DNA of 64,000 nucleotides, taken from NCBI GenBank assembly GCA_021845595.1, contig JAJZVV010000015.1:1-64000 (forward strand). The letters run 5' to 3'. The notes under the pieces were generated by a model that ran no database searches, was not told where the DNA came from, and saw only the letters and a program-made list of their open reading frames with translations. Positions 1 through 10,362 of this stretch are shown here, in pieces. Every line of letters starts with the position of its first letter. Within the stretch, counting starts at the first letter, position 1. A program made the position numbers and the translations under genes. Source of the DNA: Pseudomonadota bacterium. GTDB taxonomy: Bacteria > Pseudomonadota > Alphaproteobacteria > Acetobacterales > Acetobacteraceae.

Positions 1-131
1 CTAGGGCACGGTCCGACCTGATGGAATCATCTGGTCGGACGGTCGTGCTCTAGAAACATATGACTCTAGAGCAACTTATCTCCGATCGGCCCGAGCCGGA
101 ACGGCTCGGGCCGATCGGAGGTTGCTCTAGA
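1..131 (+). repeat. Composite palindromic repeat, copy A (REP/BIME-like)
   Basis: Two bulged hairpins lie in tandem. Hairpin 1 (about 1-54) has an outer arm of the type gagcacg/cgtgctc, a 3-nt bulge and an inner arm gtccgacc/ggtcggac. Hairpin 2 (66-130) has an outer arm ctagagcaac/gttgctctag, a 4-nt bulge (ttat) and an 18-bp inner stem. About 10 bp separate them. The same arrangement recurs at 4267, 42099 and 59398. The outer arm of hairpin 1 carries one change here and the copy touches the window edge. It lies downstream of the minus-strand PEP-CTERM gene and could act as its terminator. Confidence 0.9.
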
Positions 132-4106: not shown

Positions 4107-4266
4107 GTGGGGGGTGGCGCGACAATATGCAGAGTGGGTTGTCCTGCAGGCCCGCCACATGCGCCTTGAGACCATCCCTCAGTTGGGCGACGACCCCACC
4201 GTCAGCCTGCCCGCCCCGGGCGGTCTGACAATAAGGCCGCTCACCGCAGCCAACCGGCAGCCGCTT
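4107..4266. other. Intergenic, nothing recognised
   Basis: This gap runs from the hydrolase stop to repeat copy B. I see no ORF with family features and no RNA. Confidence 0.4.
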
Positions 4267-4396
4267 CTAGAGCAACCTCCGATCTGATTGAGCCGTTCCG
4301 GCTCGATCAGATCGGAGATAAGTTGCTCTAGACTCATAGGTTTCTAGAGCACGACCGTCCGACCGGATGATTCCATCAGGTCGGACCGTGCTCTAA
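4267..4396 (-). repeat. Composite palindromic repeat, copy B
   Basis: This copy has the opposite orientation to copy A: hairpin 2 comes first (4267-4331), then hairpin 1 (4344-4395). The stretch 4268-4395 is identical to 59398-59525. The inner stem of hairpin 2 differs from copy A but remains paired apart from one mismatch. The copy sits between the hydrolase gene and the four-gene membrane operon. Confidence 0.92.
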
Positions 4397-4650
4397 GCCA
4401 CATCCGGAGCCACGACCCCAAGGTCAGGACGGGCCGCGGGCCAACCCGGAAAACCACCGGACAAGACTTGGCCGACGAGGCGCCTCAGGGACAGTCGCTG
4501 AGCCTGTCCATGCGGCGCCTGTCGTTGTTCCCGAGCGGCCAGGCCCCTTCACGTCCAGCGCCTGGATCCGGTGCGCAGCAATCGAGCGGAATGCGGCGAG
4601 AGCGGCCTCCAGCCGTTCGCCTGGGACAGACGCGCGTGGACCTTCCGGCG
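4397..4650. other. Gap between repeat B and membrane operon, no gene supported
   Basis: A 76-codon minus-strand frame (4424-4654) and overlapping plus-strand frames exist, but none has a recognisable motif, start signal or convincing composition. It may be degraded flanking DNA of the downstream operon. Confidence 0.4.
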
Positions 4651-5598
4651 TCACCGGGGCACCTCATGAACCATGAAGGCCGACCAGAGTTGCCCCATCA
4701 ACGACTTGTAGCCGGGCTTGTTGGTCCGCGCGGTGTCGTCGACGGCCAGGACACCGTAGCGGCACTTCGCCGCCGACGCCTGCGCCCTGAGCGGCGCCGC
4801 CGCAGACAGCAGTGTAGTCACCGGAATAGTTGTCTCTCGGGGTACGTTACCGAGAAGCTGCCACATCGGATCGTCCGGCCGCGGGCGCGGCTCGACGTCG
4901 CGCACGATCACGCCCTCGTCAAATAGATTGATCCTGAGGATATAGATCGGATGCCCCTCCGGGGTGGTCCAGCAGTAGGGAAGACCGGAGCCGCCGTTGC
5001 CCTTGAGCCGCGCGAGCTCTTGGCGCATCTGGGCGTTCTGGCCGGTCAGATCGAGATCTGCGGACGCCTGCTTCGCCGCACGGTCGAGAAGATTCTGCAG
5101 CCGCTCGGGCGCGGAGCCGCTCGTTCCCGCGGCATTCTCGAGCATCGCGCTCATTGCGTCATCCTCGGCCAGCTTCGTTGCGATAGCCTCCTGCCGAGAT
5201 TGAAGGTTGGCGACCTGCGATCGCAAATCCGCCACCGTCTGCTCCACCCGTTCGGTCGCGCCGTGAGCCTCCGCGAGCGCACTCTTCGTTTCGTCAAGCT
5301 CCTTCGCGAGCCGATCCGCCTCTGCCGCGCGTTCGAGGCGGGCCACGAGCTCCTCACCACCCTTGATGTCATGACCTTCCTCTCGCATCCGCAACATGAC
5401 AGGCGCGAGCACGGATTCGTACCGCGACAGGTTCTGCTCAAGAAGCCCGACTTCCTGATTGCGTCGAGCCAGCAGAGCACCGAGCGAAAGGAGAAGAAGG
5501 AACACGAGAAGGAGCAGTATTTCGGCAAGGGTGAGCCCAAGGACGACGCCTCGCCGGTACTCCCTGGGATCCGCAAGGCGAAAGCCCGAACCCATCAA
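4651..5598 (-). CDS. Single-span membrane protein with coiled coil, MotB/ZorB-like topology (operon gene 4)
   Basis: This 315-residue protein has a short cytoplasmic N-terminus, one strongly hydrophobic helix (about residues 18-44), a long charged coiled coil (about 46-200) and a compact C-terminal domain (about 208-315, beginning near LPYCW). Membrane-helix-then-coil-then-globular order resembles MotB, ZorB and ExbD partners of ion-driven stators. One acidic residue, Glu26, lies at the start of the helix, where those families carry a key Asp. I do not recognise an OmpA-type peptidoglycan-binding domain at the C-terminus. The start overlaps the end of the MotA-like gene by 4 bp (ATGA), implying translational coupling. 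No named family can be assigned. Confidence 0.85.
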   Translation of the reverse strand: MMGSGFRLADPREYRRGVVLGLTLAEILLLLVFLLLLSLGALLARRNQEVGLLEQNLSRYESVLAPVMLRMREEGHDIKGGEELVARLERAAEADRLAKELDETKSALAEAHGATERVEQTVADLRSQVANLQSRQEAIATKLAEDDAMSAMLENAAGTSGSAPERLQNLLDRAAKQASADLDLTGQNAQMRQELARLKGNGGSGLPYCWTTPEGHPIYILRINLFDEGVIVRDVEPRPRPDDPMWQLLGNVPRETTIPVTTLLSAAAPLRAQASAAKCRYGVLAVDDTARTNKPGYKSLMGQLWSAFMVHEVPR

Positions 5599-7028
5599 CG
5601 CTCCCCGAGCCGCTCGACCAGTCTCTCGGCCACGTCCGCCAGAGCCTCTTGAAGCTTATGGAGGGCGGCTGTCGATTGTATCAGGTCGTCCTGGGTCGCG
5701 GCCCTGGCCTTGGCGATGGCCGCCGCATCCAGTTCCGCTTGAGCCGTAGCGGCGGACATCGTGCTGGCTTGGGCCGCCGCATGCTCGCCGACGCTACGGA
5801 TAGCGCCGCTGGCAGCATCGAAAGCGGACGGAAGGCGCGCGACCGATTGCTCCAGGGTCGGAAGCGATGACTCGGCCAAGCGCTGCAGCAATTGACCGAG
5901 ATTCGAGGCAGACCGCCCGAGTGCTGCCTGTCGTTCGGCATCCCGTTCGGCCGCGGCCTCCTGCGTCAGCGCAAGCGCGTTGATCCGCTGCCGGGCATCC
6001 TCCACCTGCCGGGTGAGGAGGTCGGATGGCACGTCGATATTCTCGATGCGGTGGACGAGGCGGCCAACCTCGCCTGAGACCTTTTTCGCAATGCCGATGA
6101 GGCTCTCGGTGGCTTCCCGATGGGAGTCACCAGCCTTCTGCATGTTTGCGGCCATGCTCACCGCCGCCTGCGCCAGCCTGGCGGCTGCGTCATCGGTGTG
6201 CCGCCCCAACCGCTCACTTGCGGCCGCATGAGCGGCGCCCGAAGTCGCGAGATGTTCGCTGAGCCCCTTCGAGACGGACGCAAATTGCGCAATCCTGCTT
6301 CCGAGCTGTTCGTCCATCACCTGGGTCGTTCGCAGTCGGAATCCCTCCAGGCTCTGCACGGCCGTGCCGAGCTGGTCTTTTAGCCGCTGGGCCGCGTCCT
6401 GAAGTTCGGTTCGGATTACCTCTTCGACATCCTCGATCTCGCGCCGCATCTGCATGAAGAAGACCCGGAGCGTGATGCCGCCGATCGTGGAGAACAAGGC
6501 GACGCCGAAACTCCCAATCAAACCCTCCAGCAACATCCCCCGCGCGTCCGGCGCTTTGACCTCGATCTCGATTAGCGCGGCCGAGAGGCTCGCGAGCGTG
6601 AACAGGAAGCCCATGTAATAGCAATTGTCCCCGAGCCGGTCCGGATGGAGCCGGAACCACTCGAGGCGGTATGAAACCAAGGCATAGGCGACCAGCACCC
6701 CAACTGCCATCAGTGCGGCCGTGAGGCCGGGAAAACCGTTCGTCTTGGCGACAAAGGTTCCGCCAAAGCCGAGGACCGCAAACAGGATGAACAAGCCCCG
6801 GTCGGGCATGTCGTTGAAGAACGAGCGGCGTCTTACCGGGCGCGCTGCAGCCGGACGGAGTGCTTCCTCCACACCGCGGGGGTCCGCGGGCGAAAGCGCG
6901 TCGTAGCGGGGTGCATCCCGTGCCGAGGCGGCGGTTCCCGGCGGCACGGCACCGCGACCAGGCCGCGGCGCCGAAGCCGCTGGTTGCTGATCTCCGTCAG
7001 AGATCGGAGGTGACGCCTCGCCGTTCAT
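5595..7028 (-). CDS. MotA/TolQ/ExbB-like (ZorA-like) membrane protein with long coiled-coil tail (operon gene 3)
   Basis: This 477-residue protein has a disordered Pro/Ala-rich N-terminus (1-72), then hydrophobic spans at about 77-97, 100-120, 134-153 and 168-192. The last span contains GSFGVALFSTIGG, resembling the pore-lining helices of MotA/TolQ/ExbB and ZorA channels, and the third contains YYMGFLFTL. Residues from about 195 onward form a long charged, alanine-rich coiled coil, as in ZorA tails. Family membership is inferred from topology and motif style. It lies between the VWA-like and single-span genes with 1-bp and 4-bp overlaps, so the products probably form one complex. Confidence 0.85.
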   Translation of the reverse strand: MNGEASPPISDGDQQPAASAPRPGRGAVPPGTAASARDAPRYDALSPADPRGVEEALRPAAARPVRRRSFFNDMPDRGLFILFAVLGFGGTFVAKTNGFPGLTAALMAVGVLVAYALVSYRLEWFRLHPDRLGDNCYYMGFLFTLASLSAALIEIEVKAPDARGMLLEGLIGSFGVALFSTIGGITLRVFFMQMRREIEDVEEVIRTELQDAAQRLKDQLGTAVQSLEGFRLRTTQVMDEQLGSRIAQFASVSKGLSEHLATSGAAHAAASERLGRHTDDAAARLAQAAVSMAANMQKAGDSHREATESLIGIAKKVSGEVGRLVHRIENIDVPSDLLTRQVEDARQRINALALTQEAAAERDAERQAALGRSASNLGQLLQRLAESSLPTLEQSVARLPSAFDAASGAIRSVGEHAAAQASTMSAATAQAELDAAAIAKARAATQDDLIQSTAALHKLQEALADVAERLVERLGER

Positions 7029-7852
7029 CAGATCGCTTCCATGCTGCGCAGGGTTGCGTTTTCCCGATCAAAAAACTTTTCCCAGAACAGCTGATGCCGT
7101 CGGTCCTGAACATGAACGTCCTTCGGCCTGACGAGATAAAGAACATCGACAGACGCCCCATGGCAATCAGCCAAGACTTCTTTATAGGCAGAACTGTTAG
7201 AGAATTTTTCGAATTCCTTGGTCTTATAATGATTCATGAGACGAGAATATTGTATCATATCAGAAACAATCGTGAATCTAGCTGGCGCTCGGCTAGGCAG
7301 ATTCCCGAATGCCGCGACACAAACAGCTTTTACGCTCTCCATGATAGGCGAAGACGGTTCACTGGACGGAGACGTCATCATCGACAGAGTTTGGTCGAGA
7401 GGTTTTATGAATTTATCCTCGTATCTCTCGTGTATTTTTGCCGAATTTTCGTAGAGATCGTTTCCGTTCGACTTCGGGCGGCAGAGGGAGACCACCGGCG
7501 CGAGTGCCTGGGTACCATCGCCCGCGAGCACGTAGAAGTCGATCCGCTCCCCGATGCTGGCGTCGGACACGATACGGTCCAGAACCTGGTGCAAACGCTG
7601 CGCCTGCAGCGGCGTGATGGCATCCGACCGATCGACAAGAATGGCATGGACCGCTGTCGGACCGGAAACGGGACACATCGTCGCTTCGTCCACGGCGACG
7701 TGTGTCTTCCGGAGCCAGTAGTCACCGCCCACGCCGGCAATCACGATCGCGATCGACACGCCGATCAGCATCCATGGCAAAAACTTGCTCGGCTCACCGC
7801 GCCGATATCTCGTGACGCGCGAACGCTGGCGCCTGCTGTCGCGCACCATCAC
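7028..7852 (-). CDS. Membrane-anchored von Willebrand A-like protein (operon gene 2)
   Basis: This protein has 274 residues: a basic N-terminus, one transmembrane helix (about 24-45) and a soluble domain. ILVDRSDAI (near residue 73) resembles the first MIDAS loop of VWA domains (DxSxS) but ends in Asp. ERIDFYVL and TIVSDMIQYS follow in the order of a Rossmann-like VWA fold. The first codon is GTG at 7852, with ATG at 7849. It begins right after the stop of the upstream gene. The 3' part, around 7070-7450, is visibly AT-richer than the chromosome around it, suggesting acquisition. The VWA assignment is an inference from motif order. Confidence 0.8.
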   Translation of the reverse strand: MMVRDSRRQRSRVTRYRRGEPSKFLPWMLIGVSIAIVIAGVGGDYWLRKTHVAVDEATMCPVSGPTAVHAILVDRSDAITPLQAQRLHQVLDRIVSDASIGERIDFYVLAGDGTQALAPVVSLCRPKSNGNDLYENSAKIHERYEDKFIKPLDQTLSMMTSPSSEPSSPIMESVKAVCVAAFGNLPSRAPARFTIVSDMIQYSRLMNHYKTKEFEKFSNSSAYKEVLADCHGASVDVLYLVRPKDVHVQDRRHQLFWEKFFDRENATLRSMEAI

Positions 7853-9244
7853 CTAGAGTTCTCCAGGTGTCTGCTGGAGAACGATAGCATGTTCGTCGAG
7901 AACTTTTTGGCGGAGGGTATCGAGCTCCGCAATGAGCGAATCGGCGTCGTGTTCCATTCCTTGATCGATCATGAGAAATTGGAACTCCGGCCTTTCCAGC
8001 GCCGCATCATGGAAAGAAAATCGGTCACCGAAATGATTCGGTGTCGGTTCACTTCGGGACGCGATGTTCGACTCCCTGTAAACTCTAAGAAGATGCTGAG
8101 CTGACTGCGCAAGATTATCTTCCACAGATCTGTATTCAGAAATAATTCTAGCGCGAGCTGCCGATATCTGCTGCCGTTGGGAGCTTGCAGCTCTCAGCTC
8201 CTCGATCGCCTGATAGGCTTGGTCGGCGTATTCATTCGTAAAGTCGGCTGCGTCCTCGATCAGGTTATGGCGTTCATCGCGATACCGCTCGACGGCAACG
8301 ATGCGGCGCCTCTCGACGGCGCCGTAGCCCGGCAATGGATCGTCTAATTTATAGCCCTTCCAAGTTGCCGCACCAGAGAAAAGCATCCCCGCAGCAAAAA
8401 GAAGCCACGAATAGATTGACTGCAGGCCAAATGGTGCCGAGATAAGACGTTGCCCGACGTCGATCATCCGCGTGGCGTCACCGGCCGTCTGATAAATGTC
8501 ACGATAATGCGCGACAAAGCCGTTGAACCCGATGATGGCTCCCTCGATGGCAAAAAACGCCAGGCCGGAGGGGAATGAAATAAGCCAGCGGCGGTGATTT
8601 CGAAACCTTAGGAAAACGAAGCCGTTCAGTGCGCCGGTTGCCACGTTTATCGCCGAAAGCGCGAGCGCGAGTAGAACTCCACCAAGAAGGCCCATATCCG
8701 AACCATTCGCAAAGAACAGTCCGTTGAGGATCGATTCAACAATCACGAAAAAAATTAGAATCGCAATAGACATGAACCGACCCTCGGCCAACCTGGGAGG
8801 TCTTGTGATCCGGTTCGTCCGCCTGAATTTCGCGAATTCGGCCGTCGCCTCCACCGCATGGCGCCGAAGCTCGCTGATTTCTCCACTCCATAGCGACCGG
8901 ATCTTCCGCAACTGCGTAATTGCCTCATCCGCCCGCTGACGCATCTCCGCGACCGTCATCCCGGTCTGGAGGGTCGACAGCGCATCGCGCTGAGCCCGGA
9001 GGTGGGAGGCCAGATCCGCGGCGCATCGGTCCCGCTCCGCGTGGATGTCGGTCACCACTTCCTGTTCGGCGAGAGCCAAATGGTCGGCCCCCGCCGCCGG
9101 GACATTTCTTGCGCCATCCTCGGCCCCGCGCTCCGCAAGCCGCCGTGCCTTTGCCTGCCTGGCGACGTCCACAGGCCGGAACGGCAACGACATGGTGCTC
9201 CGGGGGCTGTCGAGCCATTTCATGAACGAAGGGGTGTCGGTCAC
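7853..9244 (-). CDS. Four-span membrane protein flanked by coiled coils (operon gene 1)
   Basis: This protein has 463 residues. A charged helical N-terminal part (about 25-150) precedes four hydrophobic spans (about 157-178, 182-205, 219-240, 270-292) and then a second helical cytoplasmic region (about 305-463). The start used is GTG at 9244; ATG at 9223 is an alternative, and neither has a strong ribosome-binding site. It is the first gene of the minus-strand four-gene operon and abuts the VWA-like gene. No known family is recognised. It could be a membrane scaffold or sensor for the MotA/MotB-like pair; that role is inferred from linkage only. Confidence 0.8.
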   Translation of the reverse strand: MTDTPSFMKWLDSPRSTMSLPFRPVDVARQAKARRLAERGAEDGARNVPAAGADHLALAEQEVVTDIHAERDRCAADLASHLRAQRDALSTLQTGMTVAEMRQRADEAITQLRKIRSLWSGEISELRRHAVEATAEFAKFRRTNRITRPPRLAEGRFMSIAILIFFVIVESILNGLFFANGSDMGLLGGVLLALALSAINVATGALNGFVFLRFRNHRRWLISFPSGLAFFAIEGAIIGFNGFVAHYRDIYQTAGDATRMIDVGQRLISAPFGLQSIYSWLLFAAGMLFSGAATWKGYKLDDPLPGYGAVERRRIVAVERYRDERHNLIEDAADFTNEYADQAYQAIEELRAASSQRQQISAARARIISEYRSVEDNLAQSAQHLLRVYRESNIASRSEPTPNHFGDRFSFHDAALERPEFQFLMIDQGMEHDADSLIAELDTLRQKVLDEHAIVLQQTPGEL

Positions 9245-9723
9245 CTGCGCTGCCTACACGACATTGTCTCAAAATTTCTTAGACGTAAGCAAGACCTGGG
9301 CCCCGGGTCAAGACGGCGGCGCCCCCGTGACCGAGTGTGTCCCCCATCGCGTAAATCGCCCTGCTTGTTTTGATCGTAGTTCGCCTTCGCGGCCCCTCTC
9401 TTCTGCTTGCGCTCGTTGCTCCAGGCGACCAGCAGCGCCGCTGGAAGCCACCCTCACCCAGGATCACCACCCCGGCCGCCTGATCCGTGGCCACCTCAAT
9501 CTATGCCGCAAATCACTCTGTTGACGGACACGGCGGATAAATATAATTTAAGGATCCTCGCTGCTGCCGAACAGGCCAAGCGCCCGCGTGCGGGCCACAG
9601 TGTCTCTATTTTTCTTAGCCCGCTCGGACGCCGGAACGAACATACCCTGAATCAATGCCTGAAGGCAGTGGCGCGCGGATTGCCTTGCACAACTCAGAAC
9701 ATCATTGCCGGGAGGAACCCACC
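9245..9723. other. Upstream region of the membrane operon and PEP-CTERM gene 2, no gene supported
   Basis: About 480 bp lie between divergent genes. Short frames on both strands lack motifs. AT-rich patches at about 9260-9285 and 9535-9560 are plausible promoter areas for the membrane operon (minus) and the PEP-CTERM gene (plus). The stretch 9300-9500 may be decayed coding DNA but matches nothing I recognise. Confidence 0.45.
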
Positions 9724-10362
9724 GTGCTCAAGAAATCCCTGCTCGCCGCCGCGGCTCTCGGCGGCAGCCTCGCTTTCGCCGCCCAGGCCCGGGCCGATCT
9801 GATCGTGATCAGCGTCAACGGCAGTGAGGTGACCAATGGCTCCGGCAGCGCGAACGTCTCCGGCCAGACCTTCGGCAACTTCACGGTCACGGCTTCGGCC
9901 GTGGGAACGCCCCCGCTCGCCCAGCCGCGGCTGACCTCGTCCACCCTGGACGTTTCCGCGACCGGCGGTGGAACCCTGACCATCACCATCACCGAACAGG
10001 ACGTCACCAGCCCGCTTGGCGTCTACAACATGCTGAGCGGCTTCTCGTTGACCTCGATCAGCGGCGGCATCGGCTCGGTCGAAGAGGCGACCTACCTGAA
10101 CACCAGCAACGGACTCTATGGCGGTACGCTGCTCAGCAGCACCACCTTCACCGGCACGGGAGGCTTGAACCAGATCGCGCCGACGCCGCTGACCACCGGC
10201 ACATACTCGGTCCTGGAAGTCTTCACCATCACCGCGACCGGCCTCGGTTCCACCGCCGGCGGGATCTCCACCGCGGACGTGCCGGAGCCCGCTTCGCTCC
10301 TGCTCCTCGGCACCGGCCTGCTCGGCACCGGGCTGGTCCGCCGCCGCCGCCGTTCGGTCTGA
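9724..10362 (+). CDS. PEP-CTERM sorting domain protein
   Basis: This is a predicted exported protein of 212 residues from the GTG at 9724, chosen because gggagga lies just upstream and the N-terminus then reads as a clean signal peptide (VLKKSLLAAAALGG, cleavage after ARA). Starting at the ATG at 9655 would put 23 polar residues before it. The body is beta-rich and low in charge. The C-terminus has VPEPASLLLLGTGLLG followed by an arginine cluster, the full PEP-CTERM signal. The exosortase must lie elsewhere. A strong terminator hairpin follows. Confidence 0.9.
   Translation: MLKKSLLAAAALGGSLAFAAQARADLIVISVNGSEVTNGSGSANVSGQTFGNFTVTASAVGTPPLAQPRLTSSTLDVSATGGGTLTITITEQDVTSPLGVYNMLSGFSLTSISGGIGSVEEATYLNTSNGLYGGTLLSSTTFTGTGGLNQIAPTPLTTGTYSVLEVFTITATGLGSTAGGISTADVPEPASLLLLGTGLLGTGLVRRRRRSV

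Follow-up and report, generated by a model that had tools for sequence, protein, structure and literature searches.

We report here an operon of five genes, g1 to g5, probably acquired horizontally, on the minus strand of a contig from an alphaproteobacterium of the family Acetobacteraceae (assembly GCA_021845595.1, contig JAJZVV010000015.1; the window analyzed is the whole stretch of 64,000 nt from position 1). On balance, we consider that the operon encodes a machine of the MotAB/ZorAB type, driven by ions and set in the inner membrane, that probably acts at the envelope in defence against phages or other foreign DNA. Ion-driven A/B motors power flagella, outer-membrane processes and Zorya defence, and it is the motor part of the proposal, with g3 and g4 as an ion-driven stator-like complex, that we regard as likely; a role in defence, suggested by genomic context, is probable to a lesser degree, and a nuclease mechanism for the family is put forward tentatively. 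The association of related operons with an exported or fused nuclease, which does not show in the window itself, is the strongest clue to function.

Organization of the operon

All open reading frames (ORFs) of the operon lie on the minus strand and abut or overlap. A preliminary description of this DNA had recognized four genes with overlaps of 0-4 bp; the ORFs were re-derived and stand as described, but a fifth, g5, had been missed and extends the operon to 9244-4424. The features are as follows:

g1, 7853..9244, minus strand: 463 amino acids (aa); coiled cytoplasmic N-terminus, about four membrane spans, coiled C-terminus
g2, 7028..7852, minus strand: 274 aa; one N-terminal span and a periplasmic domain of predicted VWA fold
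g3, 5595..7028, minus strand: 477 aa; candidate stator A subunit (MotA/ZorA-like), four spans and a coiled cytoplasmic tail of about 280 residues
g4, 4651..5598, minus strand: 315 aa; putative stator B subunit (MotB/ZorB-like), one span, coiled coil and C-terminal 'CW' domain
g5, 4424..4654, minus strand: 76 aa; small ORF with a helical N-terminal motif like ALARLRxxALxRLA
Inferred inserted segment, 4399..9360, no strand: absent from the congener G147, lower GC

The g1 and g2 genes abut, g2 and g3 share 1 nt, and g3 and g4 share either 4 nt or 1 nt, depending on whether g4 starts at the TTG at 5598 (315 aa) or at the ATG at 5595 (314 aa). The g4 stop and the g5 start overlap by 4 nt, with the sequence GTGA. 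By hydropathy, g2 and g4 have one span each and g3 has four, as previously proposed; the four spans given earlier to g1 are borne out in part, with three clear spans and one weaker candidate.

The gene set recurs as a unit

Relatives were collected by scanning 84,980 species with an alignment of the g3 membrane domain, which gave 202 relatives, and 80 loci were taken for study. A profile search then covered 88 alphaproteobacterial loci, consisting of scan loci, plasmid loci and the window. Co-occurrence elsewhere, whose absence would have refuted the interpretation in the preliminary description, was found in 78 of the 88 loci, with g1-g2-g3-g4 in the same order on a single strand; because the order recurs so often, the association of the four genes is far beyond chance. 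The ten exceptions comprise four loci without g4 only (L103, and L035, L042 and L046, where the sequence stops shortly past g3), five without g1-g2 (L037-L041) and one without any of the three partners (L102).

The unit is also carried on plasmids. A g3 match was present in 24 plasmid records, a separate search with g2 also gave 24, with identical genus counts, and the annotated neighbourhoods of the g3 matches show the four-gene unit. By BLASTP, the window proteins share 27-30% identity with their relatives for g1 (E 1e-38 to 1e-51), 27-32% for g2 and 26-39% for g3 in its membrane part; g4 matches in the N-terminal span only. Window g4 used as query in a scan of genome contigs found no relatives; the g3 alignment did.

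Within the host's own family the gene is sparse: of 200 genomes searched across the whole family, 4 matched g3, two congeners gave no match, and three of the four matched genomes, all of one other genus, have g3-g4 only. A tblastn search of phage genomes with the g3 of a relative gave no match. No match above cut-off was obtained for g1, g2 or g3 in Pfam, PADLOC or NCBIfam, and a literature search excluding supplements and preprints found no description of the operon.

g3 and g4 form a candidate motor pair

The g4 protein has one N-terminal span with an acidic residue, and its gene adjoins or overlaps g3. The span carries the motif GLTxAE, of which the Glu is invariant in 83/83 relatives; this is where, from what is known of MotB and ZorB, we would expect the acid that carries the ion. 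At the C-terminal place, 61 of the 83 relatives have an OmpA-type domain, matched by the Pfam OmpA family, and in profile searches of the PDB these proteins match ZorB (8vvi_A, 6e-6), MotS and PomB, with E values in the range 1e-5 to 1e-6. The g4 proteins of most relatives are thus MotB/PomB/ZorB-like as judged from their sequences, in line with what had been proposed for window g4. Window g4 itself was found by Pfam to lack an OmpA-type domain and ends instead in the 'CW' domain (about residues 186-313), with a conserved PxCW motif and a second Cys, for which no Pfam family was matched. The earlier statement that an OmpA-like domain is missing therefore holds for window g4 but not for the family, and the idea that window g4 is typical of its family was rejected, since the relatives carry OmpA domains.

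The predicted model of g3 shows a long helical tail behind four membrane helices, with no large cytoplasmic domain between the second and third transmembrane helices (TM2 and TM3); a motif, GDNxYY, is invariant just before TM3. In Foldseek searches of the PDB, the only high-probability stator-like matches were to ZorAB (probability 0.97-1.0, but E above 0.1), with root-mean-square deviations of 1.8-3.1 for the ZorAB entries 8qyy and 8vvi_C; no match fell below E 0.001, which we attribute to the coils. Alignment by hhalign placed the TM3-TM4 hairpin in register with both the ZorA set (E 0.008) and the MotA set (E 0.005), at a non-significant probability of 5-7%. Sequence searches of the PDB with g3, g2 and g1 returned nothing meaningful beyond coiled-coil noise. 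The kinship of g3 with MotA/ExbB/ZorA is thus less firm than was proposed earlier, being based on topology, gene pairing, the Foldseek matches and a non-significant profile alignment; sequence profiles do not prove it.

In a tree of g3, the CW-type rows fall in two separate parts, where three rows are unreliable: L044 is truncated and for that reason labelled Omp, L196 is a short N-terminal piece and L102 has no g4. We therefore claim no count of domain swaps.

The pair invites comparison with known A/B motors. Like the MotAB/PomAB stators, it has a single acidic residue in the B-subunit span and, in relatives, an OmpA/MotB-type domain; unlike them, it has no flagellar context, and g3 has a coiled tail and no large TM2-TM3 cytoplasmic domain. 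It shares with TolQR-TolA and ExbBD-TonB the logic of an ion-driven inner-membrane A/B motor, but there is no TolA or TonB relay here, the span number and partners differ, and TolQR and ExbBD are poorer structural matches to g3 than ZorAB.

The closest likeness is to Zorya, of which types I-III consist of ZorAB with ZorCD, ZorE or ZorFG (PMC11890865). Features in common are an A subunit predicted to cross the membrane four times and to have a long tail in the cytoplasm, a one-span B subunit (OmpA-like in most relatives), adjacent A and B genes, an accessory distribution and nuclease partners. Descent from Zorya, with the ZorC/D/E/F/G effectors lost or replaced in a divergent system, would explain the long-tailed four-span A subunit, the ZorB-like B subunit of relatives and the rank of ZorAB as the best stator-like fold match of g3. 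The ZorA models nevertheless miss g3, with a best PADLOC E value of 0.0014 lying in the coiled tail and an NCBIfam ZorA score of 7.8 bits against a cut-off of 190. Neither g1, g2 nor g5 matches a Zorya effector in PADLOC or Pfam, including DUF3348 and DUF2894; assignment to Zorya III, which has DUF3348/DUF2894 partners, was rejected on the same Pfam result. ZorC, D, E, F and G are all absent; in their place g1 and g2 are conserved as dedicated new partners. Zorya nucleases are cytoplasmic, whereas those of the relatives are either exported or attached to the B subunit on its periplasmic side, and the acidic span residue here is Glu, with a CW domain and not OmpA in the window subtype. By any tested marker the window operon is not a Zorya system, as had been concluded before, and descent from one by loss or replacement of effectors is very improbable.

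The partner proteins g1, g2 and g5

The profile search of the loci gave 82 hits to g1-like ORFs in the matching operon position. g1 is a new family, with about four spans between coiled regions.

The g2 protein is predicted to carry an alpha/beta, Rossmann-like VWA fold, as had been suggested: its AlphaFold model (predicted local distance difference test score, pLDDT, 89) best matched an integrin I domain and the VWA domain of BatB in Foldseek (E 8e-6, probability 1.0). The canonical metal ion-dependent adhesion site (MIDAS), DxSxS...T...D, is not present; alignments show instead a conserved D-x-x-D ... SP ... SD motif, with invariant D74, D77, S168-P169 and D198, which we read as a modified MIDAS. 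Two conserved Cys, C60 and C124, fit an exported domain. g2 resembles BatA/BatB in having one span and a VWA fold, but it is shorter, shares only ~10% identity, has the modified MIDAS and lies in no MoxR or aerotolerance operon.

Distant g2-like VWA proteins (E 1e-10 to 1e-11) were found in three loci of gamma- and betaproteobacteria (L193:7546-9962, L194:6093-8566 and L195:4946-7413), where the gene adjoins those for a membrane protein of 520-550 aa and a lipoprotein-like protein with a glycine zipper. These units possibly point to a wider group of envelope complexes with VWA proteins. A g1-g2 pair without g3-g4 occurs in a conserved chromosomal setting in one genus (L191:8209-10598 and L192:6231-8620).

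For g5, BLAST gave no significant match beyond the window genome. An ORF of 67-84 aa with a g5-like motif follows g4 in L036-L041, L043 and L051, all CW-type, and in L045 a g5-like sequence forms the start of a longer ORF; a g5-like small ORF follows g4 in every CW-type relative with enough sequence. Very probably, g5 belongs to the operon, its homology to these ORFs resting on position and motif.

Nucleases accompany the operon in relatives

We found 37 SNase-type hits in 36 of the 88 loci, a locus count inflated by near-identical strains. Each is either fused to g4 or no more than 1.3 kb away from the operon, and no SNase occurs elsewhere in the retrieved flanks of the 88 loci. The SNase is the C-terminal domain of g4 in four loci (L055, L058, L062 and L092); in a fifth, L107, a GmrSD_C HNH nuclease domain (E 2e-13) stands at the place of the SNase fusion. 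All free SNases (32/32) carry a hydrophobic stretch at the N-terminus, as would be expected for an export signal or anchor, and the motifs DGDT and GIDAPE, read by eye, are present in most of the sequences listed. The C-terminus of MotB-like B subunits is periplasmic, and a separate or g4-fused nuclease would therefore sit in the periplasm. This exported nuclease hints that the machine may keep foreign DNA, such as phage genomes, out of the cell.

A precedent, and only that, is SNIPE, a membrane-bound DUF4041 nuclease that cuts phage DNA during injection (PMC13190303). The likeness lies in the proposed site of action, where a membrane-placed nuclease meets DNA on its way through the inner membrane; SNIPE, however, is a single protein without a motor, whereas the relatives described here export their nuclease and the window subtype lacks one. 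On one Sinorhizobium plasmid, a gene with the DUF4041 (SNIPE) domain adjoins a thermonuclease gene and the motor operon (L033:15673-17148).

Another explanation is that the operon is an accessory to conjugation or DNA uptake which excludes or processes DNA in transfer or transformation, the SNase being an exported DNase with no anti-phage role. Fifteen of the 24 plasmid records are typed as conjugative or mobilizable, traA lies near the operon in L028, and thermonuclease genes are co-regulated with tra genes on a rhizobial plasmid (PMC13055273). Against this, many of the loci are on chromosomes or large contigs and transfer genes are absent around the window operon, and we think this explanation unlikely.

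The operon appears to be an accessory insertion

Homology between the window and the congener G147 ends at 4398 on the left and starts again at 9361 on the right, where the edge is sharp; the left edge lies beside a 130-nt repeat and is less certain. GC is about 0.55-0.65 inside the operon vs. mostly 0.70 or more in the flanks. Together with its patchy presence, the insertion and lower GC mark the operon as accessory and probably acquired horizontally. At the same right flank, G147 has a ThsB-type TIR gene (PADLOC 3.5e-71) followed by a SLOG-patatin gene (L127:255-2449, contig 236), a TIR and phospholipase pair suggestive of a Thoeris-like system whose effector is a patatin, and the site therefore seems to swap defence cargo. 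Neighbours of the family identified by PADLOC include GajA, AriA, AbiEii and PD-T7 proteins. In L034 (13038-16194), a Gabija-like pair of genes, for a UvrD helicase and an ATP-binding protein, lies 7 kb from the motor operon.

A further alternative is a machine for envelope maintenance or transport like Tol-Pal or ExbBD, in which the motor would power a periplasmic process such as outer-membrane linkage, cell-wall remodelling or uptake, with the VWA protein as a structural partner and no defence role. The building blocks are shared (an A/B motor, a peptidoglycan-binding OmpA domain and a VWA partner), the distant VWA protein beside membrane and lipoprotein-like genes in L193-L195 resembles envelope biology, and in one genus a g3-g4-g5 unit sits amid ordinary genes. 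Such housekeeping is nevertheless at odds with the patchy presence, insertion, lower GC and plasmid carriage, with the association and fusion with nucleases, and with the Thoeris-like pair that the congener has at this flank. We judge this alternative rather unlikely, if somewhat less so than the conjugation accessory.

The 130-nt repeat is inverted, at window positions 2-131 and 4266-4395 (92% complementary), holds a strong palindrome and occurs once in a congener (L128, 13340-13471). Window base 1 is the contig end, the assembly having broken at this repeat. Two PEP-CTERM-type proteins, at 255-968 and 9655-10362, flank the region.

A proposed working and its standing

In the scheme that we propose, g3 (A subunit, presumably a pentamer) and g4 (B subunit, presumably a dimer) would form the motor, the span Glu carrying the ion, with the g3 tail reaching into the cytoplasm and the g4 C-terminus into the periplasm. 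OmpA-type g4 relatives would bind peptidoglycan, and window g4 would use its Cys-linked CW domain at this place. g2 and g1 may act as a sensor or clutch, by which an incoming DNA channel or a disturbed envelope is recognized and linked to the motor. The entering DNA would then be cut, in many relatives, by a nuclease in the periplasm, either free or fused to g4; for the window subtype, the CW domain, g1 and g5 are candidate effectors. The data show the conservation of the operon, the MotB/ZorB homology of g4 in relatives, the predicted VWA fold of g2, the association with nucleases, and the patchy distribution and insertion; ion conduction, the 5:2 assembly, the defence function and the nuclease target are what we infer from them.

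Several points weigh against this scheme. In the window, no nuclease gene was found near the operon, and among CW-type loci an SNase adjoins only two (L051 and L196). A thermonuclease gene close to traG is common on rhizobial plasmids, where its presence may have unrelated causes (PMC13055273), and part of the SNase association may for this reason be plasmid context. The two halves of the operon can live apart, g3-g4-g5 alone in L037-L041 and g1-g2 alone in L191 and L192, and may therefore not form one complex. g3 has no significant match to MotA_ExbB (PF01618), ZorA or any PDB sequence. Finally, the idea that such operons lie in defence islands was borne out only modestly: PADLOC hits near the family represent 48 families vs. 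18 in a random control (97 proteins each), an excess that we have not used as main evidence. The observation made in the preliminary description is thus confirmed, and its interpretation, an ion-driven machine with its own sensor or effector pair and possibly a defence or envelope function, is partly supported.

The family may represent a new class of envelope immunity, which we advance with some reserve: an ion-powered, wall-anchored machine whose periplasmic VWA sensor would place or activate a periplasmic nuclease on DNA crossing the envelope, the CW subtype having swapped the anchor and nuclease for the CW domain and a small partner. If true, the A/B-type engine would have been used once again, possibly for the cleavage of DNA that has not yet reached the cytoplasm. 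Rhizobial plasmids carry this short and conserved gene set, and the proposal is therefore directly testable in laboratory strains.

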